Assembly (NCBI RefSeq): GCF_003815775.1
Contig: NZ_CP033926.1
Coordinates: forward strand, 1,364,001 to 1,428,000
Length of the DNA: 64,000 nt
Reading direction: 5' to 3'
DNA from: Chryseobacterium joostei
GTDB lineage: Bacteria > Bacteroidota > Bacteroidia > Flavobacteriales > Weeksellaceae
Made by a program: the position numbers and the translations under genes. A model generated the notes under the pieces. The model saw only the letters and a list, made by a program, of their open reading frames with translations, had not been told where the DNA came from and ran no database searches. Below, piece after piece: positions 28,002 through 42,860 of this stretch; position 1 is the first letter of the stretch, and every line of letters begins with the position of its first letter.

Positions 28002-28058
28002 AATAAAATTATTTTAGATTAATACTCCAAAGGTATTATGGGAACAGCATTCCGACCA

Positions 28059-28092
28059 TGATTTCAGTTAGGGTTTCAAATGATCCTAATCA
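28059..28092. promoter_or_regulatory. FNR-type sites upstream of hsp20
   Basis: TGATTTCAGTTA (28059-28070) matches TGAY-N4-RTCA except for one base. Its centre is 33.5 bp from the TTTG of the hsp20 -7 element. A perfect match, TGATCCTAATCA (28081-28092), lies 22 bases further upstream and overlaps the end of the neighbouring gene. Confidence 0.5.
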
Positions 28093-28448
28093 CTATTTCC
28101 CCAATTATCTAAAGTTTTAATAATCAAGGAAGCGGCCACTTTCGGATCTGAGCATTTAATAATTTTGTATTGTATTCCGGAATTTGTAATAATTGGTAAA
28201 TCAATAAAAAACTCTTCCGCTGATTTTAAAATGAGGTATGGTATTCCCAATGAAATAAGTTTCAGGATAAAACTATGTGAAAGTTGATTTTCCTGATTGA
28301 TGATAATGACAGCATCTTTTGCCTCTGCAAAATGAACTGTATTTTCATCCAAAGGATCTGTTATGATGGTAATCTTGTGTATCTTACGATTAGCCAACGC
28401 AAGAAGTTCTTTTTCTTCCTGATTTATATTATAAACTATCACTTTCAT
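28086..28448 (-). CDS. Stand-alone LdhA N-terminal-like domain protein
   Basis: About 120 residues that resemble only the first, substrate-binding domain of D-2-hydroxyacid dehydrogenases (D-lactate dehydrogenase). It has MKVIVYNINQEEKELL, then AEAKDAVIIINQENQLSHSF and LISLGIPYLILKSAEEFFI. The NAD-binding Rossmann domain is absent, so it cannot be a dehydrogenase. The start MKVIVYN at 28448 is preferred over 28496. It lies between the FNR-like regulator and hsp20. It may be a small ligand-binding stress protein or a relic that kept its frame. TACATTTG (minus, 28466-28473) is a -7 candidate. Confidence 0.65.
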   Translation of the reverse strand: MKVIVYNINQEEKELLALANRKIHKITIITDPLDENTVHFAEAKDAVIIINQENQLSHSFILKLISLGIPYLILKSAEEFFIDLPIITNSGIQYKIIKCSDPKVAASLIIKTLDNWGNSD

Positions 28449-28496
28449 AATGTCTTTTGAATAATCAAATGTATAGAACCCAACAGAACTATTCAA

Positions 28497-28508
28497 TGTA
28501 TGAAATCA
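28497..28508 (-). promoter_or_regulatory. Weak FNR-type half-site upstream of the LdhA-domain gene
   Basis: On the minus strand TGATTTCATACA has one perfect half (TGAT) and one poor half. Its centre is 33.5 bp from the TTTG of TACATTTG, as in the stronger promoters. Confidence 0.3.
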
Positions 28509-28527
28509 TGATAAAAAGTGACAGATA

Positions 28528-29580
28528 TTAGTTTTTTAATTTTTGAAGACGTGAAATGTCCAATATTGTAATCCTGCCAGCATTTCTGTCTATTAAATTT
28601 TCTTCTTTAAAATCACTGAGAATTCTGCTTACCGTTTCAATAGCCATTCCAGCCATAGAAGCAAGGTTTTCTCTTGAAATTTCAAAATTTTCAGTCTGAG
28701 GATGTTTTGTGTGAAGTTTAAGTAAGACTTCTGCCATTCTTTTTCTTACTGAAAAATAGGCAAGCTGCAATAGCTGCTCCTCATGACTGATAACATTTCC
28801 GGCAAGAATCTTAATAAATTTTTCTGCTACATCAGGATATTTGTAAAACAATTGATCGATAACCTCTCTGGGAACTGAACATAGAGTGGCTTCTTCCAGA
28901 ACTTCTGCAGTTTCTTTGTATTCTTTTCCAGCGAATAATGAGGTAATGCCAAAATAATCTTCGGCTCCATATACTCCGGTCATAAATTCCTTTCCATCTT
29001 CTGTCATTTTTGTTGTTTTTACAGAACCGGATATCATTAAATATACTGTACTTGCTGCATCTCCTTCATAATATATCACCTGCTTTTTTTTAAAAGACTT
29101 AATTTTCCTCTCATTAAACGCTTTTTGCAATTCTTCAAGTCCGTGTGATGCCTGAAATAAATTGGTGATTTGAGTAAGATTGGAACTGTAAATATTTCTC
29201 TGTCGTTCCCTTTTTTTCAGACGGCTTTCTATAGCATTCAGAAGTTCTATATCATCATAAGGTTTTGTAAGATAATCATCTGCCCCCATTTCTATTCCTT
29301 TCCTTATTTCAATCCTGTCTGCTTTTGCCGTTATAAAAATAAAAGGAATAAGCGCCGTATCTTCTCTTTTATTCAGAAGGTGCAGCACACCATAGCCGTC
29401 AAGCTCCGGCATCATGATATCACAGAGTATGATATCCGGAATATGTTTTATGGCCAGATCTATGCCCTGCTTACCATTAGAAGCTTGGTATACTTGATAA
29501 TTGGCAAGTTCAAGGATCTCAGAAGTACTTTCACGAATGTCCTCATTATCCTCTATAATCAGTATCTGTATTTTTTCCAT
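28528..29580 (-). CDS. Response regulator fused to a CRP/FNR-type activator
   Basis: A 350-residue fusion. Residues 1-120 are a receiver domain with E10/D11, phosphoacceptor D54 (in ILCDIMMPELDG), T84 and K106. Residues about 150-270 are a cyclic-nucleotide-binding-type beta-barrel (KKQVIYYEGDAASTVYLMIS). Residues about 280-350 are a CRP/FNR winged HTH. The recognition helix reads MAIETVSRILSDF, with E315, S318 and R319 forming ExxSR as in FNR, which reads TTGAT halves. No FNR-type cysteine cluster is present, so sensing must come from phosphorylation. It lies 24 bases after the PAS kinase gene. It is the likely activator of the FNR-type sites in this region. Confidence 0.92.
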   Translation of the reverse strand: MEKIQILIIEDNEDIRESTSEILELANYQVYQASNGKQGIDLAIKHIPDIILCDIMMPELDGYGVLHLLNKREDTALIPFIFITAKADRIEIRKGIEMGADDYLTKPYDDIELLNAIESRLKKRERQRNIYSSNLTQITNLFQASHGLEELQKAFNERKIKSFKKKQVIYYEGDAASTVYLMISGSVKTTKMTEDGKEFMTGVYGAEDYFGITSLFAGKEYKETAEVLEEATLCSVPREVIDQLFYKYPDVAEKFIKILAGNVISHEEQLLQLAYFSVRKRMAEVLLKLHTKHPQTENFEISRENLASMAGMAIETVSRILSDFKEENLIDRNAGRITILDISRLQKLKN

Positions 29581-29604
29581 CTCAACTCAATTGGAATATT
29601 ATTA

Positions 29605-30792
29605 TCAATTTTTAGGAAATGATAAAGTAAACTCAGTTCCTTTACCGAATGTGCTTTTGAAATGTATTTTCCCATCCATAAGACTGACATAGCGCTGTAC
29701 AATATTGAGACCTAAGCCCGTTCCGGGTATGTTTCCTGTATTATGAGCGCGGAAAAATGGCTGGAAAAGAGCAGAATGATCATCTTCAGGTATTCCTATT
29801 CCATTGTCCTTTACCGAAAATACATATTGATTTTCTTTTATTTCTGTGGAAAACTCAATCAGGGTGTGTTCTCCGGAATATTTTATAGCATTACTCATCA
29901 GGTTCATCAGACAATTCTTCAATAAATTTTGATCTAAATTGATTTCACTTTCTGATCCTGTGTGCTGGTAAATTATAATTTGATCTTCTTTGGTGATAAG
30001 CTGCATTTCTTCCGTTAGTTCTTCTGAAAACCTGATGACATCAAATAGGCAGTGATTAGGATGTACAATCCCTGCTTCCAGCTTTTCCAATGAAAGAAAA
30101 TCATTGAGAATGCCGTTCAAACTCCCAATAGCGGTCTTTATTTTATGAAGGTGCTTTACAATCTGGAGACTGTCTGAAACCTGAAGGTATTTCTCTATCA
30201 AAATAACAGACAGCTGCATAGAACTTAAAGGCGTACGAAATTCATGAGATGCCATTGATACGAAACGGCTTTTCATACGGTTCAGTTCTTTTTCTTTTTC
30301 CAAAGATACATTAGCTTCTTCCTTGGCTTCTTCCAGCTCATGAAGCATTTTTTTCAGCGATTTTGTACGGTTTTCGACTAGTTCTTCCAGCTCTAACGTA
30401 TACTTTTTAAGAAATTCTTCCGCTTCTTTTTCTTTGGAAAGATCATGGATAAATCCTGTGTAAATAATTCTTTCCTGAAACTGAACTTCACTCACTGCAA
30501 GCCTGAATGGAAATTGTGTACCATCTTTTCTTAAACCTTTTACTTCTCTTCCTTTTCCGATGATTTTTTTTTCGCCGGTAGTCTGATAATTGAGTAGATA
30601 ACCATCATGCCGACTCCTGTCTGGTTCCGGCATTAAGACTGAGATATTTTTCCCGATTAATTCTTGTTCTTTGTAGCCAAATATTTTTAATGCAGAGGGA
30701 TTCAGGCTTTCTATTCTCCCCCTGTCATCAATGGTTATAATACCGTCAATAGCCGTTTCAATAATGGCTTGCAACAGTTTGGCACTTTCCAT
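29605..30792 (-). CDS. FixL-like PAS sensor histidine kinase
   Basis: A soluble kinase of about 395 residues without membrane helices. The PAS domain (about 1-125) matches the haem PAS of FixL: VLMPEPDRSRHDGYLLNY, KIIGKGREVKGLRKDGTQFP and a TGFIHDL end. His62 and Arg82 are 20 residues apart, the spacing of the haem ligand His200 and oxygen-sensing Arg220 of rhizobial FixL. A coiled coil, the phospho-His box (ASHEFRTPLSSMQ), the N box (NLMSNAIKYSGE) and G boxes (DNGIGIP, GTGLGLNIV) follow. The start MESAKLL at 30792 is preferred over 30828. It should phosphorylate the receiver-CRP protein encoded next. Haem binding is inferred. Confidence 0.9.
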   Translation of the reverse strand: MESAKLLQAIIETAIDGIITIDDRGRIESLNPSALKIFGYKEQELIGKNISVLMPEPDRSRHDGYLLNYQTTGEKKIIGKGREVKGLRKDGTQFPFRLAVSEVQFQERIIYTGFIHDLSKEKEAEEFLKKYTLELEELVENRTKSLKKMLHELEEAKEEANVSLEKEKELNRMKSRFVSMASHEFRTPLSSMQLSVILIEKYLQVSDSLQIVKHLHKIKTAIGSLNGILNDFLSLEKLEAGIVHPNHCLFDVIRFSEELTEEMQLITKEDQIIIYQHTGSESEINLDQNLLKNCLMNLMSNAIKYSGEHTLIEFSTEIKENQYVFSVKDNGIGIPEDDHSALFQPFFRAHNTGNIPGTGLGLNIVQRYVSLMDGKIHFKSTFGKGTEFTLSFPKN

Positions 30793-30923
30793 AGTTATCG
30801 TATTATGCAGCCATATAAAGTTATACATTTTAGCATAATGAACATATATGAACTATGAAAATATTTTCGTATTCAATATTATTTTTATTATAAACAATTA
30901 TATGTAATAATTAATTCAAATAT

Positions 30924-31799
30924 TCAAAAATGAACATGACCATTTTCAGGAATCGTTAATAGTGGAATTTCCAATTCTACAGCCTGTCTTGCGGCATGGC
31001 TTCCCAAAAATAGTCTTTTGAAAAAACTTTTGTCATGATGGCCCATCACTAACATATCGATGTCTTTGTATTTTAATATTTCCAAGCCATAATCTATATT
31101 TTCACTGTATATACAGTTATAGCAAACTTTACCATTCAGGTTCTTTAGAAACGTCTCTTTCTTATGTTCATAAGTGGCATCCTGGATCACATCATTATCA
31201 CTCTGAATAATATGGGTAATTAAAAGCTCAGCATCAAAGTATTTGGCAAATTCAATTAATAATTGGGCTGTTTTTATGTCTTTTTTATTCAGATCTGTAG
31301 CGAAAGCAATCTTCTTAAGCCCATTATATTTATGGTTTAATGGAACTAAAAGAAGCGGATACTTTGTGTTTTCAATCATCTGTATGCTGTTGCTTCCGAA
31401 AATAAAACGGGTAAGCATCCCTGCTCCCTGCATACCCATTACGATAAGAAGCGGCTTTTTATCGGCTGCCATATTGTTGATCACATGAACGGCATCACCT
31501 CCCTCACTTCCATAATGTATTGAAGGATGAAATGGGAAAGCTTCATCTCCCCATATAACTTTTTCTCTGTCTTCCAGTGCCCTTGCCAACTTTTTAAGCT
31601 CTTTTGTATTTTCTTCGTATAAATCTGGATATTCGTATACAGACCACGCGATCTGCCCAAGCATTGGACTTTCAATCGGTAACCCAAAGGCATGGCATAA
31701 ATCGATGTTAGCCTTCAGGGCATTGGCTAAATGCAGAGCATAAAAGGCAGCATTTCTCGCTGGCTTTGAGTAGTCTGTAGCGACTAAAATCGTTCTCAT
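30924..31799 (-). CDS. Universal stress protein, tandem UspA domains
   Basis: A 291-residue cytosolic protein with two UspA domains. The first (MRTILVATDYSKPARNAAFY) keeps the nucleotide loop MGMQGAGMLTRFIFGSNS (GxxG-N9-GS). The second (about 160-291) has MGHHDKSFFKRLFLGSHA, a weaker version. It lies 7 bases after the L,D-transpeptidase gene, so it is in its operon. Tandem UspA proteins are typical members of low-oxygen and dormancy regulons. Confidence 0.92.
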   Translation of the reverse strand: MRTILVATDYSKPARNAAFYALHLANALKANIDLCHAFGLPIESPMLGQIAWSVYEYPDLYEENTKELKKLARALEDREKVIWGDEAFPFHPSIHYGSEGGDAVHVINNMAADKKPLLIVMGMQGAGMLTRFIFGSNSIQMIENTKYPLLLVPLNHKYNGLKKIAFATDLNKKDIKTAQLLIEFAKYFDAELLITHIIQSDNDVIQDATYEHKKETFLKNLNGKVCYNCIYSENIDYGLEILKYKDIDMLVMGHHDKSFFKRLFLGSHAARQAVELEIPLLTIPENGHVHF

Positions 31800-31806
31800 A
31801 ATCGGA

Positions 31807-33177
31807 TTATTTATTTTGGTTAAACATATTTTCTAATGAATCATCTAAATGGTAAATATCTTTATATAATACAGGCTTTCCATCTATTATAAGACAGGTC
31901 AGATAGGTTATAATAATCGGAACAGGTTGCTTTAGAACGAAATCTTTTCTTTTATACTCTGACATTGCACTTTCTAAAACAGGAATCTTGCTTCCTGAGC
32001 CATCGTCTTTTAATAGGAGAGCTGCGAGCTCTTGAGCATTTTCAACACGAATGCATCCGTGACTCAAAGCTCTATCATCTTTATTGAATAATTGTTTCTG
32101 AGAAGTATCATGGAGGTATATTCCATAAGAGTTTTCAAATCTAAAAACTACCGCTCCCAATGCATTATCACAACCGGATGACTGCCTTACACTATATCGG
32201 TAAGGGTTTTGACGAATCTCTTTTAGTTTTGATGAACTTATTTCAACTTGATTTCCATTTTTATCATAAACTGAGTAATGATGGTCCTCTAAATATTGAG
32301 GGTTTTTTAAGATTTTAGGCAGCATTTCTTTTACAAAAATACTTTGAGGAACCTTCCAGTCAGGCGCTGTCGTAAAATAAGTAATACTACTCCTCAAAAC
32401 TGGTGTTTTAGTGGCTAGATTTCCTATAATAACTTTAAAATCAAATACATTACCCTCGTGATAAAGTTTCAATGTATAGGAAGGAATATTTACCAGAATA
32501 TAGGAAGTATCATTCGTATCAATCCATCGTAAGCGCTCCATATTGATCATTATTTTTTCAGATTCACTTTCCGGAGCTATACAGTCACCTTCTTCATACA
32601 GTGTATTTAAATAGTTCTGGAAGTCCGCATATTCTTTTATTTTAGGCTGAATCTCGAGGATTGTCTTAAGAAAATCTGTCTGCTGTCTTGCATTCTGTAA
32701 TATATCGTCGGATCTAAATCCATTAATATCATTGGAATCAATATATGATGATTTGTACAAAGGGTTGTATTTTCCTAAATGCAGATGATTGATGAAAGTG
32801 ATAAGAGCATCCGTCATAAGAATATCGAACTCAGCTTTCTCACTTTGATTCTCTTCAACGGGAGTATCTCGCAATTTTCTTAACTTCTGAAGAGAAATGG
32901 AATCCCAATGATAATCAGACAAAGACAGACCAAATCGATAGGAATACTCCAACAGTAACATTGCGGTTTCAGGCTGATCTGATTTTTCTGCGGTAATCCA
33001 CGCAAATTCAGAATTAATTCCGGCATAAAACCTAATAACCGATTGAGGATAATGCAGTTTTGAGAGCATACCATTGTCTTTTAGTAAAGAAGAAATCTCC
33101 TGCCCTGTTTTTATATCCTGAGCTTGCGTAATTATTGCAAAGCAAAAAATAATGGTGAATGTTAAAAAGGCTTTCAT
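31807..33177 (-). CDS. L,D-transpeptidase (YcbB-like)
   Basis: About 456 residues. A signal peptide (MKAFLTFTIIFCFAIITQAQ) is followed by an N-terminal scaffold domain and the YkuD catalytic domain with catalytic Cys in LSHGCIRVENAQELA. It makes 3-3 peptidoglycan cross-links or attaches proteins in the periplasm. The start MKAFLTF at 33177 gives a clean signal peptide, so the longer frame from 33198 is rejected. It is the first gene of the operon with Usp, kinase and regulator. A strong FNR-type palindrome lies 50 bases upstream, implying feedback by the regulator. Confidence 0.9.
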   Translation of the reverse strand: MKAFLTFTIIFCFAIITQAQDIKTGQEISSLLKDNGMLSKLHYPQSVIRFYAGINSEFAWITAEKSDQPETAMLLLEYSYRFGLSLSDYHWDSISLQKLRKLRDTPVEENQSEKAEFDILMTDALITFINHLHLGKYNPLYKSSYIDSNDINGFRSDDILQNARQQTDFLKTILEIQPKIKEYADFQNYLNTLYEEGDCIAPESESEKIMINMERLRWIDTNDTSYILVNIPSYTLKLYHEGNVFDFKVIIGNLATKTPVLRSSITYFTTAPDWKVPQSIFVKEMLPKILKNPQYLEDHHYSVYDKNGNQVEISSSKLKEIRQNPYRYSVRQSSGCDNALGAVVFRFENSYGIYLHDTSQKQLFNKDDRALSHGCIRVENAQELAALLLKDDGSGSKIPVLESAMSEYKRKDFVLKQPVPIIITYLTCLIIDGKPVLYKDIYHLDDSLENMFNQNK

Positions 33178-33226
33178 AATATGAAGTTTATACCACAAAT
33201 TTCCAAATTACCACACTATCAAATAA

Positions 33227-33238
33227 TGACTGCCATCA
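33227..33238 (-). promoter_or_regulatory. FNR-type site for the L,D-transpeptidase/Usp/kinase/regulator operon
   Basis: TGACTGCCATCA on the plus strand, TGATGGCAGTCA on the minus: a perfect TGAY-N4-RTCA. Its centre is 33.5 bp from the TTTG of GAAATTTG (minus, 33196-33203). The adjoining TCACT-A8-TGA (33236-33251) is repeated exactly next to the ppa site. Confidence 0.7.
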
Positions 33239-33376
33239 CTAAAAAAAATGATATCACTTATACTTTCATCTATTTTTTATCAAAGCTATCCAAACGCTTA
33301 TTATAAGAAATTCGATTTAAGATTTTATGCGTTTAAAAGATTGAATTGTTGAACTGATCAGCATCATTTTTCGCAG

Positions 33377-33388
33377 TGATACGTATCA
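33377..33388 (+). promoter_or_regulatory. FNR-type site for BON gene 1
   Basis: TGATACGTATCA, a perfect palindrome. Its centre is 33.5 bp upstream of the TTTG in GACCTTTG (33412-33419). Confidence 0.75.
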
Positions 33389-33577
33389 TATTATTTCTCA
33401 TGCAGGTTACTGACCTTTGGGATGAATTAACATAAAGCATAACCATGAATCTGAAGAAAAGCATATGCTAAGACAATAGAAAATCTTTTAAGTAAAAAAT
33501 AATATAAGAATTTGATACAATTATAAAATTCTTCCAATTAACAAACTTTAAACATTTATTAATCAAAAAAAATTGAA

Positions 33578-34243
33578 ATGAAAACAAATGCAAAATTACA
33601 AAGAGATGTTCAAAATGCCATTAAATGGGAACCATTACTGCATGCAGCAGAAATTGGAGTTATTGCAAAAGACGGTGTGATTTCCCTTACCGGCGTAGTT
33701 GATAACTATGCAAAAAAAGCTGAGGCCGAAAATGCTGCTAAAAAAGTTGCCGGTGTTAAGGCTTTAGTTGAAAATATTGAAGTAAAATTTCCAAGCTCAT
33801 TGAAAAAGGCAGATGCTGAAATAGCCAAGGAAGTACTGGATGCATTACGATCTAATTATTCTATTCCTGATGATAAAATAATGGTAAAAGTGGAAGATGG
33901 ATGGGTAACCTTAGAAGGGGAATTACCATGGCATTACCAAAAGGAAGAGGTGGCCAGCGTGGTAAAATATCTTACCGGTGTAAAGGGCTTGATCAATAAG
34001 ATTACAATTAAATCAGAATTAGACGATGCAATACAAAAAAAAGACATTCAAGATGCCTTGAAAAGAAGTTCAATTTATGATAATGATATTAAAGTATCCG
34101 TTTTAGGAACAACAGTAACCTTAACGGGAACTGCAAATTCATTGTATCAGAAAGAAGAAGCCGGCCGTATTGCCTGGAAAACTCCGGGTATATGGAATGT
34201 AAAAAATGAACTGGACGTTAATTATGAATATGATTTTTATTAA
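33578..34243 (+). CDS. Triple BON-domain protein 1
   Basis: A 221-residue protein of three BON domains in tandem (about 1-70, 75-145, 148-221). Each ends in a V.G....VENIEVK-like strand pair; domain 2 has VKVEDGWVTLEGELPW and domain 3 has VSVLGTTVTLTGTANS. BON domains bind phospholipid or other envelope ligands and are usually periplasmic. Here no signal peptide is present in any of the three paralogues (33578, 36794, 42861), so the protein is probably cytosolic. The C-terminus ends in an aromatic tail (NYEYDFY) shared by the paralogues. An FNR-type site precedes it. Confidence 0.92.
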   Translation: MKTNAKLQRDVQNAIKWEPLLHAAEIGVIAKDGVISLTGVVDNYAKKAEAENAAKKVAGVKALVENIEVKFPSSLKKADAEIAKEVLDALRSNYSIPDDKIMVKVEDGWVTLEGELPWHYQKEEVASVVKYLTGVKGLINKITIKSELDDAIQKKDIQDALKRSSIYDNDIKVSVLGTTVTLTGTANSLYQKEEAGRIAWKTPGIWNVKNELDVNYEYDFY

Positions 34244-34359
34244 TCCTGGATTTAATCTTTGACCTGTAGAAGATGACTATTCCGCAAGTCAATTATCGGT
34301 TCATATACATTATTATCAAAAAAATCACCAAAATCTATTCATTAAATACCGTTGAAATT

Positions 34360-35121
34360 ATGAAAAAGTTAGAAGACAAAGTTGCCATCATAACCGGTGG
34401 TTCTGGAAGCATAGGAAAAATTACAGCTAAAATATTTTTAGAAGAGGGAGCAAAAGTAATGCTGGTAGATCTTTCTGAAAATTCTCTAAAAGATGCTGTT
34501 CAAGAACTTAACAGTGAGCATATAAAATATTGTGTTGCAGATGTCTCAAATACAGCTGAAGTTGAACACTATGTTGCTGAGACCATAAAACTATTTGGAA
34601 AAATAGATGTGTTTTTCAACAATGCAGGTATTGAAGGGATTGTAAAGCCAATTGAGTATTATCCTGAGGATATTTTTGATAAAATCATATCCGTCAATGT
34701 CAAAGGTGTATGGCTGGGTAATAAATATGTTTTGCCCCAGATGAACGATGGTGGAAGCATCATTATAACTTCATCTGTGGCTGGAATATTGGGGTTTGCA
34801 GGATTAAGCGCCTATGTAACAAGCAAACATGCTGTAGTTGGCATTATGAGAACTATGGCCCTTGAAGCATCTTCGCGAAAAATCAGAGTAAATACAATTC
34901 ATCCTTCTCCTGTAAATAACAGGATGATGCGTTCTATAGAAGAGAGCTCTTCTGCTGGACACGGTGATGAAATCAGAAAACAATTTGAGGCAGCGATACC
35001 GCTGGGACGATATGCGGAACCTATTGAAATTGCAAAACTGGTTTTATTTCTTGCAAGCGAAGACAGCAAGTTCATTACAGGGACAACTCAGATTATTGAC
35101 GGCGGAATGTCCGCTGAATAG
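34360..35121 (+). CDS. Short-chain dehydrogenase/reductase
   Basis: A classical SDR of about 253 residues. It has the NAD(P) motif KVAIITGGSGSIGKITAKIF (GxxxGxG form), NNAG in FFNNAGIEGIV, catalytic Ser in IIITSSVAGI and YVTSK in LSAYVTSKHAVVG. VDLSE after strand 2 suggests NAD preference. The start MKKLEDKV at 34360 is chosen over 34273, whose extra residues do not fit the family. The substrate is unknown. It lies between BON gene 1 and dps on the same strand. Confidence 0.88.
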   Translation: MKKLEDKVAIITGGSGSIGKITAKIFLEEGAKVMLVDLSENSLKDAVQELNSEHIKYCVADVSNTAEVEHYVAETIKLFGKIDVFFNNAGIEGIVKPIEYYPEDIFDKIISVNVKGVWLGNKYVLPQMNDGGSIIITSSVAGILGFAGLSAYVTSKHAVVGIMRTMALEASSRKIRVNTIHPSPVNNRMMRSIEESSSAGHGDEIRKQFEAAIPLGRYAEPIEIAKLVLFLASEDSKFITGTTQIIDGGMSAE

Positions 35122-35166
35122 TTATATGTATTGTCTGCAGTATAAAAAACGGTAAAATCAATTAAA

Positions 35167-35643: not shown

Positions 35644-35695
35644 ATTCTCAGACTAAAATTAGTTCTAAATGTGATATATCTTTTTTGAGTAAGAA

Positions 35696-36628
35696 TTATT
35701 TCCATATTTCATAAAATAAATGCTTTGCATTTTCCTTAGTAAAAAGTCCTGTTCCTTGGGTCATTGTAGTGGCAGATCCACAAGCAATTCCCATGGAAAG
35801 GGCTTCTTTACAATTACCCCCTTTTACCAAAACTGAAACCATTCCTGCAACCATGCTGTCTCCGGCACCAACAGTGCTTTTCACTTCGACAACCGGTGCC
35901 GCGATCTTAATTTTTTCACTTTCTGAAAATAAGACAGCTCCCTGAGAGCCCAACGACACTACCACAATCTCAGCTTTACCCTGTGAAATAATAAACCGGG
36001 CAGCATGATCTATATCAGTTTCTTCCAGTTTTTCTTTTCCCACTAAAAAGGCAAGTTCTCCAATATTAGGTTTTAATAAAAATACCCCTTCTTCTACCGC
36101 TGTTTTCAGAGCTTCTCCTGAAGTATCGATAATTACCTTAGTTCCCATTGCCTTATAGATATTAACAAGTCTTCTTAGAAAATTCGGATTTGTGTTTGTT
36201 GGCAGACTACCACTGATGACGACAAAATCCGGACAGGGATTTATGGTAGGCAAAATGCTTAGAATATCTTTTTGCTGTTCCAGCGTCAGCTCTTCTCCGG
36301 GAAATCCAAATCGATACTGTTTGTTGGTAGAGAGATCCAAAACAATGAAATTTTCCCGCGTTTCTGAAGTAATATGAAAAGGGAATACATTCAGCTCTTC
36401 GCCCTTAAGCAAGTTTTCAAGCAGTCTGCCGGTCCTCCCCCCTGAAGTAAAAAAAATATCTGAGACTACTCCCAATCTTTTTAAGGCTCTGGATACATTA
36501 ACCCCACCTCCTCCCGGTTCGTATATAGGGGAATTACAACGCAACTTCTTTTCAGGAACGATGTTTTGAACACTGCTGCTTTTGTCTACTGATGGGTTCA
36601 GTGTTATTGTTAAAATAGTTTTGTCCAT
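35696..36628 (-). CDS. PfkB-family hexose kinase (phosphofructokinase II/1-phosphofructokinase type)
   Basis: A 310-residue PfkB-fold sugar kinase. It has the substrate loop in PGGGGVNVSRALKRLG and the ATP/catalytic signature in VKSTVGAGDSMVAGMVSVL, with the catalytic Asp. The overall pattern fits 6-phosphofructokinase II or 1-phosphofructokinase. Dormancy regulons often carry such a kinase. The upstream FNR-type site at 36708-36719 faces this gene, with GAAATTTG (minus, 36667-36674) as -7 candidate. The spacing is 43.5 bp, one helical turn longer than at the BON genes. Confidence 0.9.
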   Translation of the reverse strand: MDKTILTITLNPSVDKSSSVQNIVPEKKLRCNSPIYEPGGGGVNVSRALKRLGVVSDIFFTSGGRTGRLLENLLKGEELNVFPFHITSETRENFIVLDLSTNKQYRFGFPGEELTLEQQKDILSILPTINPCPDFVVISGSLPTNTNPNFLRRLVNIYKAMGTKVIIDTSGEALKTAVEEGVFLLKPNIGELAFLVGKEKLEETDIDHAARFIISQGKAEIVVVSLGSQGAVLFSESEKIKIAAPVVEVKSTVGAGDSMVAGMVSVLVKGGNCKEALSMGIACGSATTMTQGTGLFTKENAKHLFYEIWK

Positions 36629-36707
36629 TTTTATTATTTTTTAAGCTTCACGCGTACATAGCTATCCAAATTTCAATAATAAAATACACACCACCAAACA
36701 TTTATCC

Positions 36708-36719
36708 TGATTAACATCA
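36708..36719 (-). promoter_or_regulatory. FNR-type site facing pfkB
   Basis: TGATTAACATCA, a perfect TGAY-N4-RTCA. The centre is 43.5 bp from the TTTG of GAAATTTG on the minus strand, which is 10 bp more than the other promoters. Confidence 0.55.
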
Positions 36720-36729
36720 TGATTCATTG

Positions 36730-36741
36730 TGATGTTAGTCA
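36730..36741 (+). promoter_or_regulatory. FNR-type site for BON gene 2
   Basis: TGATGTTAGTCA. The centre is 33.5 bp upstream of the TTTG in GAACTTTG (36765-36772), putting it near -41.5 from the expected start of transcription. Confidence 0.75.
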
Positions 36742-36793
36742 TCTTATATTCTGCGAAGTTGCCGGAACTTTGAAGTATAAAATCGTATAACAA

Positions 36794-37456
36794 ATGAAAA
36801 CAAATGCAGAATTACAAAAAGATGTTCAGGATGCCATTCAATGGGAACCTTTGCTGTATTCAGCAGAAATTGGTGTTGTTGTAAATAACGGAATTGTTTC
36901 CCTTACAGGTAATGTAGACAGTTATGCAAAAAAGCTGCAGGCTGAGCATGCCGCAAAAAATGTTACAGGGGTAAGGGTTTTGGTAGAAGATATTGAAGTA
37001 AAATTACCGGACCCCCGCTCAAAAACCGATGTCGAAATCGCCAGTGAAATTATAACTGCATTTAATGCAAACTCATTTATTCCACAAGAAAAAATAACAG
37101 TAAAAGTAGAAGATGGCTGGGTGGATCTGGATGGTGAAGTATCTTGGGAGTATTTAAGGGAAATTACAGAAAATGCCGTTAAGTATCTTCCCGGCGTTAC
37201 AGGTATTTACAATAATATCACCATTAACCCAGAAATCCGGGACACTGTTGAAAAGAGTGATATTGAGAGGGCACTTGACAGAAGTTCGATTGATAATAGT
37301 GAAATCAGTGTATCAGTATCCGGAACGACTGCCATATTAACGGGCACGGTACATACCTGGCATCAAAAGGAGGAAGCTGGTCGTATTGCATGGAAAACCC
37401 CTGGTATAAAGGATGTAAAAAATAAGTTAGAGGTAGATTATGAGTATAATTTATAA
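36794..37456 (+). CDS. Triple BON-domain protein 2
   Basis: A 220-residue paralogue of the proteins at 33578 and 42861, with three BON domains and no signal peptide. The N-terminus MKTNAELQKDVQDAIQWEPL and the end AGRIAWKTPGIKDVKNKLEV are almost shared. The central domain is the most changed. It has its own FNR-type promoter. The Mla-type transporter operon follows 110 bases later and may be read through. Confidence 0.92.
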   Translation: MKTNAELQKDVQDAIQWEPLLYSAEIGVVVNNGIVSLTGNVDSYAKKLQAEHAAKNVTGVRVLVEDIEVKLPDPRSKTDVEIASEIITAFNANSFIPQEKITVKVEDGWVDLDGEVSWEYLREITENAVKYLPGVTGIYNNITINPEIRDTVEKSDIERALDRSSIDNSEISVSVSGTTAILTGTVHTWHQKEEAGRIAWKTPGIKDVKNKLEVDYEYNL

Positions 37457-37566
37457 ATAATAGGCCTATACCCATTTTTTACGCACTGCATGCTATCGGT
37501 TTTGTTGATAGGCATAATCCTATAGATCATAAACAAAAGGCACTGGAATATTTTAAATGAAACATC

Positions 37567-38331
37567 GTGAAAACTTATTTTAAAAATTACCTTAGCATCG
37601 CAGGCAACATAGCTTTATTCTCCCGGCGATTTTTTAAAGAAATTTTCAAACCGGGATTTGAGTTTAAAGAGTTTATACGACAATGTTTTGTTGTTGGTTA
37701 CCAGTCGTTGCCTTTAGTAACGATAACGGCTTTTATTATGGGATTAGTCCTTACCATACAGTCACGTCCGGCTATGGCAAGGTTCGGTGCAGAATCTATG
37801 ATACCTGGTATGGTTTCACTGTCATTAATAAGGGAAATTGCACCAGTTATTACGGCTTTGATTTGTGCAGGAAGAGTTTCGTCAGGAATTGGAGCAGAAC
37901 TGGGTTCTATGAAAGTCACAGAACAAATTGACGCCATGGAGGTTTCAGCGATCAATCCTTATCGGTATCTGGTGGTAACCAGAACTCTTGCTACAACATT
38001 AATGATTCCTGTTTTAGTACTATATGCCGACTTGATTGGGATTATGGGCGGCTTTGTCGGCATCAATATGCATAGTGAAAGCAATATTGAACATTATTTC
38101 TCCCATGTATTTCAATCGTTAGAATATGAAGATATTTTACCGGCTATCATTAAGACATTCTTTTTCGGATTTTTTATTGGAATTATTGGTTGTTATGAGG
38201 GATTTAATGCTTCGGGGGGAACTAAAAGTGTAGGAAAAGCGGCAAATTCAGCCGTAGTTTCAGCATCTTTGATCATTTTTATCATTGATCTTATTGCAGT
38301 ACAGATAACCGACTTATTTTTTGAATTATAA
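37567..38331 (+). CDS. mlaE: MlaE-family ABC transporter permease
   Basis: A 254-residue inner-membrane permease of the MlaE/YrbE family. It has the conserved PLVTITAFIMGLVLTIQS region, the middle block ARFGAESMIPGMVSLSLIRE and GRVSSGIGAELGSMKVTEQI (the cytoplasmic coupling loop), plus about five membrane helices. The start is GTG at 37567: a TGA in frame lies nine bases upstream and no ATG fits, so GTG is forced. It works with the ATPase and MCE protein encoded next, probably moving phospholipids between the membranes. It overlaps mlaF by one base. Confidence 0.9.
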   Translation: MKTYFKNYLSIAGNIALFSRRFFKEIFKPGFEFKEFIRQCFVVGYQSLPLVTITAFIMGLVLTIQSRPAMARFGAESMIPGMVSLSLIREIAPVITALICAGRVSSGIGAELGSMKVTEQIDAMEVSAINPYRYLVVTRTLATTLMIPVLVLYADLIGIMGGFVGINMHSESNIEHYFSHVFQSLEYEDILPAIIKTFFFGFFIGIIGCYEGFNASGGTKSVGKAANSAVVSASLIIFIIDLIAVQITDLFFEL

Positions 38332-39110
38332 TGGAAAATAGGGAAAAATTTACAGCTGAGCATAATGAATTACAAAACTGCGAAACATTGATAGAATTTA
38401 AAAATGTTTACAAATCATATGGCAGTAATAAGGTACTCAATGGTATCAGCTTTACCGTTAAAAGAGGAGAAAATCTGGTCATTTTAGGAAAATCAGGCTC
38501 GGGGAAATCTGTTACTGTTAAATGTCTTGTAGGTCTCACCAAAGTTGATAAAGGAGAAATATTTATATCAGGAAAAGATATAACAAAATTGGATGAGGAA
38601 GGACTCAACCTGATCCGAATGAAGATTGGTTTTTTATTCCAAAATGGAGCCTTATATGATTCAATGACCGTCAGGGAGAATTTAGTTTTTACATTGCAGC
38701 ACAATAATAAAATGCTTAATGAGCAGGAAATAGAAACAGCTGTTAAAGAAGCGTTACAAAATGTAGGACTGGAGGAAGCGATTGACCTATTGCCGGCAGA
38801 GCTCTCCGGAGGAATGAGAAAGAGAATCGGGCTGGCAAGAGCATTAATAATTAAACCGGAAATTATCATTTATGATGAGCCTACCGGAGGGCTTGATACC
38901 ATTACAGCCCGTGAAATTATCGGGCTCATTCGAAATATCAAACTAAAATACAATACCTCATCCCTTATCATAACACATGATTTAACCTGTGCAAAATATA
39001 CCGGTGACAGGGTCATCGTCCTTAAAGACGGTATCATTAAAGCTGAAGGCAGCTATAAAGACATAGAAAATAATGCCGATGATTGGGTAAAATCTTTTTT
39101 TGAGAAATAA
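38331..39110 (+). CDS. mlaF: Mla-type ABC transporter ATPase
   Basis: A 259-residue ATPase. It has Walker A (VILGKSGSGKSVTVKCL), Q-loop (GFLFQNGALYDSMTV), signature (ELSGGMRKRIGLARAL), Walker B (IIIYDEPTGGLDTITA) and H-loop (IITHD). The FQNGALYDSMTV loop is typical of MlaF. Its ATG overlaps the mlaE stop (TAATG), so translation is coupled. An N-terminal extension of about 20 charged residues precedes the fold. Confidence 0.92.
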   Translation: MENREKFTAEHNELQNCETLIEFKNVYKSYGSNKVLNGISFTVKRGENLVILGKSGSGKSVTVKCLVGLTKVDKGEIFISGKDITKLDEEGLNLIRMKIGFLFQNGALYDSMTVRENLVFTLQHNNKMLNEQEIETAVKEALQNVGLEEAIDLLPAELSGGMRKRIGLARALIIKPEIIIYDEPTGGLDTITAREIIGLIRNIKLKYNTSSLIITHDLTCAKYTGDRVIVLKDGIIKAEGSYKDIENNADDWVKSFFEK

Positions 39111-39121
39111 ATAAAGTAATC

Positions 39122-40180
39122 ATGAACAACGAGTCATCAAACAACTGGAAATTGGGAATTTTTGTCACAGCTGGCATCCTTCTTTTCATAGCAACCATCT
39201 ACTTTATTGGGGTCAACAGAAATTTGTTTGGCTCTAACTTCGTTCTTCGTTCTGAGTTTAAAAACGTCAGCGGATTAAAGCAAGGCAGTAATGTCCGCCT
39301 TTCCGGAATTAACATTGGAACAGTCAGCAAAATAAATTTTATTTCAGATTCATTGGTTTTGGTAAAGCTATTAATAAGAAAGGATGTTCAAAAATATATC
39401 AAAACTGATGCAGTTGCCAGCATTGCATCTGACGGATTAATGGGTGATAAAATACTTATTATTACCCCCGGCCCCCAATCTAACACTATAGTGAAGGATA
39501 ATGACTTCATTACTTCTTATAAAACTATCGAGATAGATGATATACTCTCGAGTGTAAAACAAAGTACTGACAATGCCGAAGCAATTACTGATGAGCTTGT
39601 GGAGTTCAGCAGTAAAATGAATAACAAGAATAGTTTATTGACAAAAATAATGACCAATAAAGATTTTGCTTCGAGAATTGACAAGACCATAGAAAACCTG
39701 CAACTAAGCTCCCGAGAACTGGCAAAATTCACCTCCCTTATGAATAATAAAAATGGATTTGCATCAAAAATATTTACCGATAAGAAATGGTCAGATAATA
39801 TTGAAAGCAGTATTTCTAATTTGAGGAACAGTTCTCAAGAAATCAGTAGGTTTACAACAAAACTAAACGACAAAAACAATGTATTTTCTCAACTATCTTC
39901 CAACGATTCTTTAGCTCTTTCAATAGAAAAGACATTGCACAATCTTGAAAAAAGCTCTGATGATCTTATTCAATTTACGTCGAAAATAAATAATGATGAG
40001 AATGTATTATCGAAACTTACCAACAATCCTAAATTAGGGAAGTCTGTAGATTCCACTATCATTAATATTGAAAAAGGTGTCGGTGAATTGAGAGAAATAG
40101 AAGCCGCCGCTAAGAACAATTTTTTGCTAAGGGGTTATTTTAATAAAAAGAGAAAAGAAAACGAAAAACAAAAAAGATGA
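39122..40180 (+). CDS. mlaD: MCE-family (MlaD-like) lipid-transfer protein with four 41-residue repeats
   Basis: A 352-residue protein. It has one N-terminal membrane helix (GIFVTAGILLFIATIYFIGV), one MCE domain (about 38-120, SEFKNVSGLKQGSNVRLSGI) and a long helical tail. The tail holds four tandem repeats of exactly 41 residues, each starting F-[ST]-[ST]-x-[MLI]-N-[ND] and containing NN or ND about five residues later. They end before NFLLRGYFNKKRKE, the usual MCE C-terminus. The repeats may form a coiled tube or needle that carries lipids to the outer membrane. No MlaB or MlaC gene is in the window. Confidence 0.88.
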   Translation: MNNESSNNWKLGIFVTAGILLFIATIYFIGVNRNLFGSNFVLRSEFKNVSGLKQGSNVRLSGINIGTVSKINFISDSLVLVKLLIRKDVQKYIKTDAVASIASDGLMGDKILIITPGPQSNTIVKDNDFITSYKTIEIDDILSSVKQSTDNAEAITDELVEFSSKMNNKNSLLTKIMTNKDFASRIDKTIENLQLSSRELAKFTSLMNNKNGFASKIFTDKKWSDNIESSISNLRNSSQEISRFTTKLNDKNNVFSQLSSNDSLALSIEKTLHNLEKSSDDLIQFTSKINNDENVLSKLTNNPKLGKSVDSTIINIEKGVGELREIEAAAKNNFLLRGYFNKKRKENEKQKR

Positions 40181-40250
40181 TTGCTGCCTAATCATTCAAA
40201 ATTATAATTCATTTATCCTTACATAATGCCAACGTACTATTAAGATAGGC

Positions 40251-40287
40251 AAAAAAGAACCCAATTAAATATTTTTTATTTTGGGTT
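40251..40287 (-). terminator. Terminator after ppa
   Basis: On the minus strand AACCCAA, a 16-base AT loop and TTGGGTT are followed by CTTTTTT. The stem uses the last codons of ppa. It lies between convergent mlaD and ppa. Confidence 0.65.
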
Positions 40288-40822
40288 TAATTTCTTTGAT
40301 ATACATCATTAAACTTTCTTCAATACAAGTGAAAGCTTCTTTCCTATTTTTGAAACCAAATACCTGTACTATTTTCTCTTCTAATTTTTTATATTCTTCA
40401 AAAAAATTCTGAATCTCATTAATGGTATAAGCCGGCAGATCTTCAATATCATGAATGTGCAGCATAGAAGAATCATTTTCAGCCACCGCTATTATTTTAT
40501 GATCTTTTTTATCTTCGTCCGTCATCTCCATTATTCCTATTACCCTTGCATTAACCAGAGTAAGGGGAACGAGGTTTTCCGAACATAGCACAAGAATATC
40601 TAACGGATCTCCGTCACTGTAATAGGTCTGTGGTATGATCCCGTAATTGGCAGGATAATACATGGAAGATAAAAGAATCCTATCCAATCTGATTAACCCT
40701 GAGTGTTTGTCTATTTCATATTTTGTCCGGCTACCGGTGGGAATCTCAATAACTGCTGTAACTATTTGAGGCAGATGTTCTCCCGGAGAAACATCATGCC
40801 ATGGGTGTTGATTTCCTATCAT
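40265..40822 (-). CDS. ppa: Soluble inorganic pyrophosphatase (family I)
   Basis: A 185-residue family I pyrophosphatase. It has the signature DGDPLDILVL (three metal-binding Asp), with YYPANYGIIPQTYYSDGDP before it and KIIAV after. It splits pyrophosphate to drive biosynthesis. It has an unusual setting, inside a stress locus with an FNR-type palindrome 157 bases upstream and a long leader that can fold. That suggests a special, regulated copy. Confidence 0.93.
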   Translation of the reverse strand: MIGNQHPWHDVSPGEHLPQIVTAVIEIPTGSRTKYEIDKHSGLIRLDRILLSSMYYPANYGIIPQTYYSDGDPLDILVLCSENLVPLTLVNARVIGIMEMTDEDKKDHKIIAVAENDSSMLHIHDIEDLPAYTINEIQNFFEEYKKLEEKIVQVFGFKNRKEAFTCIEESLMMYIKEIKPKIKNI

Positions 40823-40848
40823 AATCTTAAAATTGTTTTTTTTAAACT

Positions 40849-40886
40849 AAAAGGAGGACCACTCCTTAATGAATACTCCTCCTTTT
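40849..40886 (-). promoter_or_regulatory. 9-bp inverted repeat in the ppa leader
   Basis: AAAAGGAGG and CCTCCTTTT, separated by 20 bases, lie 27 bases upstream of the ppa start. A structure here could hinder transcription or translation of ppa. There is no proof of a switch. Confidence 0.45.
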
Positions 40887-40978
40887 GTCAGAATTTTCCA
40901 ACAAACCACATGTTGCACGAATCTTCTTGGTTATTAATTTGCTTGTGTAAAATTCATCAAATTAGTAATGTTAAGAAA

Positions 40979-40990
40979 TGACATCAGTCA
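40979..40990 (-). promoter_or_regulatory. FNR-type site upstream of ppa
   Basis: TGACATCAGTCA fits TGAY-N4-RTCA. The adjoining 16 bases TCACT-A8-TGA (40988-41003) are identical to those next to the L,D-transpeptidase site. No TTTG is found at 33.5 bp; the nearest is at 23.5 bp. Confidence 0.5.
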
Positions 40991-41056
40991 CTAAAAAAAA
41001 TGACCTTGCCAGATGAAGAGACGGACTTAAATACTCTGCTTTTTTAAAGGTAATTA

Positions 41057-42715
41057 TTACCCTTGCTCATACATATTATCATATTTTCTTTTGGCATATT
41101 TATAAACCTCAAACCATAAAACAGAAAACGCTGCGATGAAAACAGTGAATCCCAATTCACCTATATTAAGTGCTGTTACCTTAAAGAATAGAGAGACAGG
41201 CTTTACATATAATATTGCAAAAAGAAACCCCAGAACTAAGGCAGAAATACCAATAAGCAAGGGATTACGGTTTCTGAAACTTTCCAACACACTATAAAAG
41301 AATGATCTGTTAACAAAACTCAGTAATATATTGGCAAAGATCAATGTACTGAATACCATTGCCCTTGTCTTGGTTTCATCACCTCAATTTTGAACTGTAA
41401 ACTGATATACAAAAAAACTCCGAGGGTTATTACGCCCCCTGAATAAAGCTGATTCCCAACTTACTCAAACTTAAAAAAGTATCTCCGATGGCTCTTGGCG
41501 GCTGTTTCATTGCGTTTTTTTCCATGGGCTCATTCTCATAAACAATAGCTTGCCTTCAAGCGGATATTCATGAAACATCTTATATTCTTTCCTTGCATCA
41601 TTTTTTTGAGTCCGCCGATAGGTGTTATGCAGAGTGATTTCCATAGGATTAAAAGGGACAGGTTCGCTACTCCACATTGCATAATCAATAAGTTTTTTCA
41701 AATTTTCAACACTAAATTCTTTTTCTCCATAAGTCCCTCCTGATTGGTAATCGTACAAATGTTTCAAGTGCATTGAATTTTCTGTAATGGTTCCTGTTTT
41801 ATCAGTGTATATAACGGTAGTACTTCCTAAAGTTTCTACAATACTGCTTCGCTTAATAATAATTCCCTGATGCATAAGCTTCCATGTTCCCAACGCCATA
41901 AAGGTTGTAAATGCTACAGGAATTTCCTAAGGTAATAAAGACATTGCCAGGGTTAATCCACTAAGAAGACTTGTTATGAGGTCTCCGGTTTTAATTTAAC
42001 TGAAGATACAAATCATAAGAAAAATAATGATCTCAATAACAGCCATCCATTTTACAAACTTTCGGATCTGGATCTGTAACGGTGATATTTCTTCTTTTAT
42101 ATTCAATAGAGATTCCCCAATTTTTCCTACACGGGTTTCTGAGCCTATTTTTTTAACTTTAAAAACTACCAAACCTGAAACTGTAACTGTACCGCTATAC
42201 ACAAGATTGTCCTCGGATTTACTATCCTTAAAAACTGAAAACGTTCACCCGTAAGAGATGATTCATTCACAGAGAAATCATTGCTGTGCACAATCATTCC
42301 ATCAGCATTTATATTTTTTCCTTCTTTAGTAACACTTAAATCACCTACAACAATTTCATGGGGTTGGAATTTCCATTATTTGCGAGTTTCTGATGACCTT
42401 ACTTAAAGGTTCGTTCAGCTTCTCAAGTTCCTCCAAAGCTTTTTTACTAAGATTATCCTGATAAAAAGAAATAGCAGTTACCGCAACAATAGCCACAAAC
42501 ATAAAAGCAGCCTCACCATAATTCCCTACTATCAAATAAATGACAGAAATAATGATAAGCAATATCAGCATAGGTTCTTTTAAAATATCAATGACCAGAT
42601 CAAACCATGTATTTTTATGGACCCCCTCCAAACGATTATATCCATTTCGTTGCCGGAAAGCTACCACTTCATCATGTGTAAGACCTGTAAGACATTAGGG
42701 TATATTGTAAGACAT
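41057..42715 (-). pseudogene. Decayed P-type cation ATPase gene
   Basis: A damaged close relative of the intact ATPase at 47979-50474. The start region reads MSYNIP then TAA at codon 7 (42695-42697). Frame shifts occur near 42360 and 42241. Stops replace residues after VICIFS-like and in the PEEIP motif (LLP then TAG). About 300 residues are deleted between EYPLEGK and IVYENEPMEK, removing the nucleotide-binding domain and the GDGVNDGP motif. DKTGTITENSM is still readable. The last 100 residues (41057-41359) remain open. It is clearly non-functional. It lies divergent from BON gene 3. Confidence 0.92.
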
Positions 42716-42798
42716 AACAAATAAATAGGTTATCTAAAAATAAGCAATTATTATATACAAATTAAATTTCCCTTCTTGACCAGTATCAGGTTTCAATG

Positions 42799-42810
42799 TG
42801 ATGTATATCA
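42799..42810 (+). promoter_or_regulatory. FNR-type site for BON gene 3
   Basis: TGATGTATATCA, a perfect match. The centre is 33.5 bp upstream of the TTTG in GAATTTTG (42834-42841). The region from site to -7 is also similar in sequence to that before BON gene 2. Confidence 0.75.
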
Positions 42811-42860
42811 TAGTGTTTTTTGCAAAGTTTCTGGAATTTTGATTGATAAATTACGTTATC

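Follow-up and report, generated by a model that had tools for sequence, protein, structure and literature searches.

Paired FNR-type operators and a candidate heme kinase-regulator pair in a stress-gene island of Chryseobacterium joostei

Which regulator, and which signal, could control a block of stress genes that share one promoter layout? This question is raised by a 64,000-nt stretch of the 4.89-Mb genome of Chryseobacterium joostei (G000:C1:1364001-1428000), to which we refer as the window and from whose first letter positions are counted. The genes in question form an island that spans approximately 24-43 kb of the window. An earlier note on its sequence had proposed an FNR-type regulon with TGAY-N4-RTCA palindromes at a fixed distance from the promoter; it overlooked a second operator site (centred at -63.5), the membership of the pyrophosphatase gene ppa, the likely regulator (28528-29580) and the likely sensor (29605-30828). 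Taking these into account, we consider it likely that the island represents a shortened, locally encoded, two-component oxygen circuit resembling FixL-FixJ-FixK and driving a low-oxygen survival regulon. We computed directly, as reported below, the architecture of the operator, its recurrence in relatives, how it clusters within the island and accompanies the regulator, and the homologies of sensor and regulator.

Paired palindromes at a fixed distance from the promoter box

Palindromes of the form TGAY-N4-RTCA are located upstream of the genes for three BON proteins, BON1 (33377), BON2 (36730) and BON3 (42799), and of the L,D-transpeptidase (LDT) gene (33227, minus strand). At all four promoters the centre of the palindrome is 33.5 bp away from the TTTG of an GANNTTTG element, precisely as the earlier note had described, and the same spacing holds, again in agreement with it, for hsp20 (28059, one mismatch) and for a gene with an LdhA-type domain (28497), where the half-site TGATTTCATACA is followed by TACATTTG at 33.5 bp. 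The spacer of N27-28 that the earlier note gives between palindrome and GANNTTTG needs correction to N23, N27 being the distance to TTTG. Exactly 22 bp upstream, a second palindrome is present at BON1 (33355), BON2 (36708), BON3 (42777) and hsp20 (28081), and the LDT promoter has a part-match (6/8) in this position (33249). The core TGAY-N4-RTCA is thus found in 4/4 main promoters; as judged from the sequence logo, the outer T/A of the TTGAT-N4-ATCAA anaerobox is not required here.

Start-site mapping in Flavobacterium psychrophilum places the sigma-A box TAnnTTTG at -12 to -5 (PMC9723704). The box found here, KANNTTTG with T or G in first position, agrees with this sigma-A -7 box, and the published position therefore puts the centres of the two sites at -41.5 and -63.5; these values, like the starts given below, are derived from the Flavobacterium box and are predictions rather than mapped positions. 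Class II activator geometry, as the earlier note had proposed, would accordingly be matched to the exact base pair, and the comparison with relatives supports an FNR-type regulon of this kind. The elements of the promoters are:

33355..33366, plus strand: BON1 upstream palindrome TGATCAGCATCA, centre 55.5 bp from TTTG (-63.5)
33377..33388, plus strand: BON1 proximal palindrome TGATACGTATCA, 33.5 bp (-41.5)
33412..33419, plus strand: BON1 -7 box GACCTTTG, predicted start ~33424 (box rule from PMC9723704)
36708..36719, plus strand: BON2 upstream palindrome TGATTAACATCA, common to the divergent pfkB gene
36730..36741, plus strand: BON2 proximal palindrome TGATGTTAGTCA
36765..36772, plus strand: BON2 -7 box GAACTTTG, predicted start ~36777
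42777..42788, plus strand: BON3 upstream palindrome TGACCAGTATCA
42799..42810, plus strand: BON3 proximal palindrome TGATGTATATCA
42834..42841, plus strand: BON3 -7 box GAATTTTG, predicted start ~42846
33249..33260, minus strand: LDT upstream site, degenerate, TAAGTGATATCA (6/8)
33227..33238, minus strand: LDT proximal palindrome TGATGGCAGTCA
33196..33203, minus strand: LDT -7 box GAAATTTG, predicted start ~33191
28081..28092, minus strand: hsp20 upstream palindrome TGATTAGGATCA, perfect
28059..28070, minus strand: hsp20 proximal palindrome TAACTGAAATCA, one mismatch
28028..28035, minus strand: hsp20 -7 box TACCTTTG, 33.5 bp from the proximal centre, predicted start ~28023
28466..28530, minus strand: degenerate tandem promoter of the LdhA-domain gene (sites 28519-28530 and 28497-28508, box 28466-28473)
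40948..41012, minus strand: ppa promoter (half-site 41001-41012, palindrome 40979-40990, box GAATTTTA 40948-40955), predicted start ~40943
36667..36674, minus strand: pfkB -7 box GAAATTTG, 43.5 bp from the shared palindrome at 36708

The refutation test of the earlier note, which looks for a lack of enrichment over shuffled sequence and of clustering, did not refute the proposed regulon: the composites exceed the shuffles, and the best model matches lie in the island. The exact composite of palindrome and box occurs four times in the window, against a mean of 0.0067 (maximum 1) in 300 dinucleotide shuffles, and the exact 22-bp tandem of palindromes three times, against the same mean of 0.0067 in 300 shuffles; the palindrome alone is present in 15 copies where 6 are expected and shuffles reach 13. 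Across the entire genome, exact TGAYN4RTCA-N23-KANNTTTG is found in five places, four of which are in the window, and the exact 22-bp tandems in three places only, all in the window. Allowing up to three mismatches, the tandem-plus-box composite gave 11 matches in the genome and none in the reversed control; eight of the 11 are in the window, two of which represent the BON2 and BON3 tandems as seen from the opposite strand. A promoter model (R1) was built from 90 promoters of relatives, to which close relatives contributed, though our genome did not. When the best 150 of 3272 first-look candidates in the genome were scored with R1, the top nine matches, with E values from 1.6e-9 to 0.02, all fell into the window, and the tenth (E 0.08) lies elsewhere. 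These nine are BON1, BON2, BON3, LDT, hsp20, ppa and the LdhA-domain gene, together with two strand echoes of paired sites. In this genome, then, the regulon seems to be confined mainly, or even entirely, to the island.

Two members of the list deserve comment. The statement of the earlier note that ppa has a site off the common spacing is wrong: the palindrome TGACTGATGTCA (40979) is positioned 33.5 bp from GAATTTTA, a half-site stands in register 22 bp upstream, and ppa ranks sixth in the genome by R1 (E 1.2e-5). The promoter of the LdhA-domain gene, which overlaps the stop codon of the regulator gene, has three mismatches to the tandem composite and a genome-wide model E of 0.003. The 43.5-bp spacing assigned to pfkB is real, and recurs in the close relatives L046, L047 and L049; however, with only 3 cases at 43.5 bp against 126 at 55.5 bp and 39 at 33.5 bp in the loci of relatives described below, we regard pfkB as a weak exception and only perhaps a full member. 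On the pfkB strand, R1 matches the shared palindromes only (17.5 bits, positions 3-58 of 75).

The fifth exact composite (G000:C1:2927132), situated in front of a small ORF that looks ThiS-like by eye, was not counted as a member; it may be due to chance, as 0.0067 per 64 kb scales to approximately 0.5 per genome. Another CRP/FNR gene (L131:777-1463, minus strand) is immediately preceded by a tandem with three mismatches (G000:C1:145854-145918; L131:1501-1565), which perhaps reflects cross-regulation or chance.

Recurrence in relatives and co-occurrence with the regulator

The same promoter layout recurs in many related bacteria. We fetched 80 loci around homologs of the candidate regulator; they were selected by this protein and are clumped (mostly Chryseobacterium, Pedobacter and Mucilaginibacter), and some genomes contribute more than one locus. 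TGAY-N4-RTCA occurs 512 times in them, compared with 49 and 56 times for two control words, and the commonest distance between palindromes is 22 (43 pairs, against 4 for the runner-up). From the centre to the TTTG of KANNTTTG, 55.5 bp was counted 126 times, 33.5 bp 39 times, 56.5 bp 20 times and 54.5 bp 11 times, with controls not exceeding 2. At least one exact composite is present in 72 of the 80 loci, involving the distal site in 72 and the proximal site in 31. The distal site of relatives is usually perfect and the proximal one looser: among 142 composite promoters, only the distal site is perfect in 103, both in 23 and only the proximal one in 16. Across 82 promoters that had been picked by distal site and box alone, with 40 containing the coding end of the regulator gene left out, the proximal site is strongly conserved although it was not selected for; its TGA positions stand at.73/.67/.79, and the polymerase-side half, conserved most of all, reads T.96 C.85 A.95 T.87. 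The conserved columns of the relatives' promoters contain no TTG-type upstream box. Of the start codons that the script chose for 137 promoter-linked ORFs, 99 follow TTTG by 20-41 bp, 22 are nearer and 16 farther; BON1 and ppa of the window belong to the far kind, with more than 41 bp.

An A-tract beside the upstream site was considered as a further feature and rejected, since in many promoters 3' of the regulator gene it is the coding end of that gene (ATGAAAAAC-TGA stop); it became weaker, though it was still visible, once such promoters had been removed. In 59 of the 80 loci, the regulator gene stops with a TGA that also opens a perfect palindrome as its first half, with a KANNTTTG box at 55.5 bp in 42 of them; in L068, for example, the regulator match ends at 11041 and the operator TGA occupies 11042-11044. 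In these loci an operator is thus embedded in the 3' end of the gene itself. In the window this gene stops with TAA, and the half-site is thus correspondingly degenerate (TAATATCTGTCA).

A survey of 296 genomes of the phylum (regulator cut-off E <= 1e-40, best seven first-look candidates scored per listed genome) detected the strict motif in 38 genomes (73 matches, none in the reversed control) and the regulator in 44. Both are present in 28 genomes, the regulator only in 16, the motif only in 10 and neither in 242 (p 8e-20); within the class, the corresponding numbers are 28/15/7/23 (p 7e-4). Of 56 motif matches in regulator-bearing genomes, our own included, 29 are within 30 kb of the regulator gene, as is the case in 19 of the 28 genomes. 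Seven strict matches on six contigs of G099, which belongs to another family of the class, show that the regulon is spread out there. Within the genus, the regulator is encoded in 13 of 78 genomes; R1 matches with E <= 1e-4 were found in all 13 of these and in none of the other 65 (p 4.5e-15), and the 66 matches of the 13 genomes at E <= 0.001 are all located within 35 kb of the regulator gene. Six weak matches (E 1.9e-4 to 9.6e-4) came from five other genomes of the genus. One homolog, G337:C1:3547753-3548502, matches the regulator over residues 100-349 only (frame of 260 aa), so that most of its receiver seems to be missing; eight promoter matches are nearby.

The genes behind these promoters bear on the signal. 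Domain counts were made over the 137 promoter-linked ORFs, and the families named here are from the best 25 of 72. The catalytic domain of D-2-hydroxyacid (lactate) dehydrogenases is present in 42 ORFs and its NAD domain in 22, and 43 ORFs are blastp relatives of the LdhA-domain gene of the window. Histidine-kinase domains were found in 12 ORFs, and 12 are blastp relatives of the window kinase. They are joined by BON (10), HSP20 (9), L,D-transpeptidase Scaffold (8), pyridoxamine-phosphate-oxidase-like (7), YceI (7), alcohol dehydrogenase (5) and OmpW (3) families. Among the targets checked individually were a cbb3 oxidase CcoN-FixO fusion, a phosphoketolase, an acetate kinase and an acetyl-CoA hydrolase. 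Judged by these annotations, several targets in relatives belong to low-oxygen metabolism; that the relatives' targets point to low oxygen and not to general stress had escaped the earlier note. The gene 3' of the regulator gene has full dehydrogenase length in some relatives (L068:11124-12128) and is a short catalytic piece in others (L057:11141-11608), behind the same promoter; the copy in the window is short.

On the minus strand, the island carries genes for a B12-dependent ribonucleotide reductase, a beta-CASP metallo-hydrolase, Hsp20, the LdhA-domain protein, the regulator, the kinase, a universal stress protein, the L,D-transpeptidase, PfkB and Ppa. The plus strand carries those for the three BON proteins, an SDR protein (named by eye), a ferritin-family (Dps-like) protein and mlaE/F/D-like genes. 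The promoter-linked genes are:

33578..34243, plus strand: BON1 gene, three BON domains
36794..37456, plus strand: BON2 gene, with mlaE/mlaF/mlaD-like genes behind it (37567-40180; the name mlaF, for 38331-39110, was assigned by eye)
31807..33198, minus strand: L,D-transpeptidase gene (YkuD and Scaffold), with the gene for the universal stress protein behind it (30924-31799, minus strand)
27582..28001, minus strand: hsp20 gene, with the beta-CASP metallo-hydrolase (26106-27473) and B12-dependent ribonucleotide reductase (24352-26064) genes behind it in the same orientation
28086..28451, minus strand: short LdhA-domain gene, adjacent to the 3' end of the regulator gene and with no Pfam or NCBIfam match of its own
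40265..40822, minus strand: inorganic pyrophosphatase gene ppa (PF00719)
35696..36628, minus strand: pfkB-family sugar kinase gene (PF00294)

Between ppa and BON3 (41057-42667), short ORFs resemble, by eye, a broken cation P-type ATPase gene, an intact relative of which is found at 47979-50474.

Candidate sensor, candidate regulator and competing explanations

Two adjacent genes of the island could provide the input:

28528..29580, minus strand: candidate regulator of 350 aa, a receiver-CRP/FNR fusion (Pfam PF00072, PF00027 and PF13545)
29605..30828, minus strand: candidate sensor, a PAS histidine kinase with a FixL-type heme PAS signature (from PDB sequence matches)

The regulator combines a response-regulator receiver, a cNMP-binding fold and a CRP/FNR helix-turn-helix, and is 72-87% identical to its ten nearest named relatives, all of which are Chryseobacterium, Epilithonimonas or Kaistella proteins. 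Asp54 of the receiver is present in 80/80 relatives, and so is the recognition helix xE[TS]VSR, which has the E-x-x-S-R of CRP/FNR proteins and which we take to be the FNR pattern. The only cysteines of the regulator in the window are Cys53 and Cys234, and the N-terminal [4Fe-4S] cysteine cluster is absent. The best PDB sequence matches of the kinase PAS domain are FixL heme PAS domains (1dp6 and others, E ~1e-30), with DosP further down. Two residues are kept in 73/73 loci in which the kinase gene is directly 5' of the regulator gene, namely the histidine in the RHD-type motif (MPEPDRSRHD) and the arginine in IIGxGR (IIGKGR); of the remaining loci, two matched unrelated kinases and five lacked coverage. 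Presumably these residues correspond to His200 and Arg220 of Bradyrhizobium FixL, so that, by sequence, the kinase has the proximal histidine and distal arginine of a FixL-type heme PAS.

From these features we infer that the kinase binds heme and oxygen and phosphorylates the regulator, that the regulator binds DNA and activates rather than represses, and which sites each dimer needs. When oxygen becomes scarce, the heme PAS kinase (29605-30828) would lose its oxygen and, in the oxygen-free state, phosphorylate the receiver of its neighbor (28528-29580). Two dimers of the phosphorylated regulator would then bind the paired TGAY-N4-RTCA sites, which, being 22 bp or about two turns apart and centred at -41.5 and -63.5, should lie on the same face of the DNA. 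At promoters with a sigma-A -7 box (KANNTTTG), the proximal dimer would sit next to RNA polymerase and serve as class II activator, and the distal one might add affinity or a further contact to polymerase. The genes for the BON proteins, Hsp20, the L,D-transpeptidase with the universal stress protein, the pyrophosphatase, the lactate-dehydrogenase domain and perhaps PfkB would thereby be activated. We also lean, by a small measure, towards its being a one-step FixL-to-FNR circuit, in which the heme kinase, the receiver-FNR fusion and all targets reside on one accessory island and employ a dimer-of-dimers operator that other Bacteroidota use with Fe-S FNR.

Several observations weigh against the proposed oxygen circuit, or limit how far the counts carry it. 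As the 80 loci were selected for the regulator and are clumped, counts over them are not independent, and eight of them lack an exact composite. Once loosened, the single-site motif is not specific by itself: with one mismatch allowed, the composite has 37 matches in the genome against 17 in the reversed control, and the 22-bp tandem with two mismatches occurs in 19 places against 12 (38 against 24 strand matches). Sixteen of the 44 regulator-bearing genomes lack the exact motif, 12 of them among the 16 in the same order. The association within the genus, for which only the best first-look candidates per genome were scored, is partly the presence or absence of the whole island, and at least 5 of the 13 positive genomes fed model R1 (their contig coordinates are the same as those of L046-L049 and L052). 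Adjacency suggests the partnership of kinase and regulator, though it is not proof of it. Conversely, ten genomes possess the motif without a fusion at E <= 1e-40; the FNRs read in four genomes (G017, G194, G271 and G273) are stand-alone proteins with N-terminal cysteines and a TExxIR helix, and two motif copies of G273 are directly 3' of stand-alone FNR-like genes (C12:309249-309979 and C23:12888-13581; the latter, read in L201, encodes N-terminal cysteines). These copies are probably read by a different kind of regulator. The operator is therefore not unique to the fusion; it is likely common to Fe-S-type FNRs, with the fusion as one of at least two probable readers.

Could the operator, then, belong to something other than an oxygen-responsive activator encoded next to it? 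That common TTTG and AT-rich DNA merely produce look-alike spacings can be practically dismissed: TTTG is indeed common, the lone palindrome hardly escapes its shuffles, and loosened motifs are frequent genome-wide and closer to their controls, but four composites against 0.007 expected, 11 against 0 in the genome and 73 against 0 in the 296 genomes led us to reject chance on the basis of the shuffles and the strict-pattern reversed controls. A different CRP/FNR protein might bind the paired sites (the 241-aa protein G000:C1:2929250-2929960, or that at 145151), making the fusion a mere neighbor. The genome has nine matches to CRP-type helix-turn-helix domains, five of them over the Pfam cut-off; the helix of the rival L138, TESAIR, resembles that of stand-alone FNRs from genomes with the motif but no fusion; and the three-mismatch tandem precedes the CRP gene at 145151. 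However, L138 is found in 78/78 genomes of the genus and strong operator matches only in the 13 with the fusion, so that L138 does not track the operator. The proximity of operator and fusion gene in 19 of the 28 genomes having both, the palindromes that begin with the stop codon of this very gene, and the fact that the fusion alone among the five proteins has an E-x-x-S-R helix without a preceding CRP-type Arg likewise make this alternative distinctly unlikely.

If the fusion does read the operator, its signal could still be other than oxygen. The ligands of PAS domains vary widely, and Hsp20, BON, universal stress, ferritin-family and L,D-transpeptidase proteins are general stress or envelope functions that a general stress or stationary-phase switch might govern. 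We judge this unlikely, though worth keeping in mind, since the closest matches of the PAS domain are to FixL and, further down, to DosP, which both sense oxygen through heme, and His and Arg are kept in 73/73 loci; cbb3 oxidase, lactate dehydrogenase and acetate kinase are among the relatives' targets, and the ribonucleotide reductase that comes after hsp20 is an oxygen-independent enzyme. Finally, the regulator might repress, blocking the promoter in air and releasing it under stress. Activation is argued here from homology and position, and in rhizobial fnrN the proximal one of two anaeroboxes represses, as PMC7888657 relates. The sites end well upstream of the -7 box, however, in the predicted position of a class II activator, and the lack of a TTG-type upstream box is as expected of activator-dependent promoters, which renders a repressor pair very improbable.

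Comparison with known systems

The proposed oxygen circuit resembles the FixL-FixJ-FixK and hFixL-FxkR-FixK systems of rhizobia in the signature of its heme PAS kinase, in its receiver step and in its FNR-type DNA-binding step. According to PMC7888657, the rhizobial anaerobox is TTGAT-N4-ATCAA and its targets include cbb3 oxidase; the core of this box and, in relatives, the cbb3 oxidase are shared by the system described here. In the rhizobial cascade, a FixJ-type regulator turns on fixK as a second gene; here, by contrast, a single protein of 350 aa unites the receiver with the FNR-type output, and the FixJ-to-fixK transcription step is consequently missing. Tandem operators 22 bp apart, a Bacteroidota sigma-A box and targets in stress rather than nitrogen fixation set it further apart. 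The fusion therefore does not belong to the FixJ-FixK cascade, nor, as it lacks the cysteines, to the Fe-S FNR family. With FNR of the E. coli type and FnrN it has in common the TGAT-N4-ATCA core, the E-x-x-S-R recognition helix and, as predicted from the box, the class II position at -41.5; it differs from them in having no N-terminal cysteine cluster and in its receiver-domain input.

In gene content, the island, which is predicted to be induced by low oxygen, matches clusters of universal stress, Hsp20 and metabolic genes such as the dormancy regulon of mycobacteria, which is controlled by a different regulator, DosR. The lxa locus of Burkholderia cenocepacia is likewise a cluster of universal stress, stress and metabolic genes; it is activated by low oxygen and tied to anoxic persistence, as reported in PMC9104464. 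Unlike these systems from other phyla, the island encodes the promoter code and a candidate sensor within the cluster. As far as searches of open papers show, oxygen control in aerobic Bacteroidota has been little described, and neither the fusion regulator nor the tandem operator in Bacteroidota was found in searches of the open-licence PMC literature. Promoter code, candidate regulator and candidate heme sensor lie in one block, the promoter model can be scanned over the phylum, and the survival of oxygen loss in such bacteria becomes directly testable.

A further comparison is that with the stand-alone FNRs of other Bacteroidota, which have the same tandem operator and, in G273, have it immediately behind the 3' ends of two FNR-like genes; they differ from the fusion in having no receiver domain and, in the four read, in their N-terminal cysteines and TExxIR helix. 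If the one-step circuit holds, the operator code would have been kept while the oxygen-sensing front end was exchanged. Two input modules, a phospho-receiver and an Fe-S cluster, would thus appear to read the same paired operator and offer a natural comparison.

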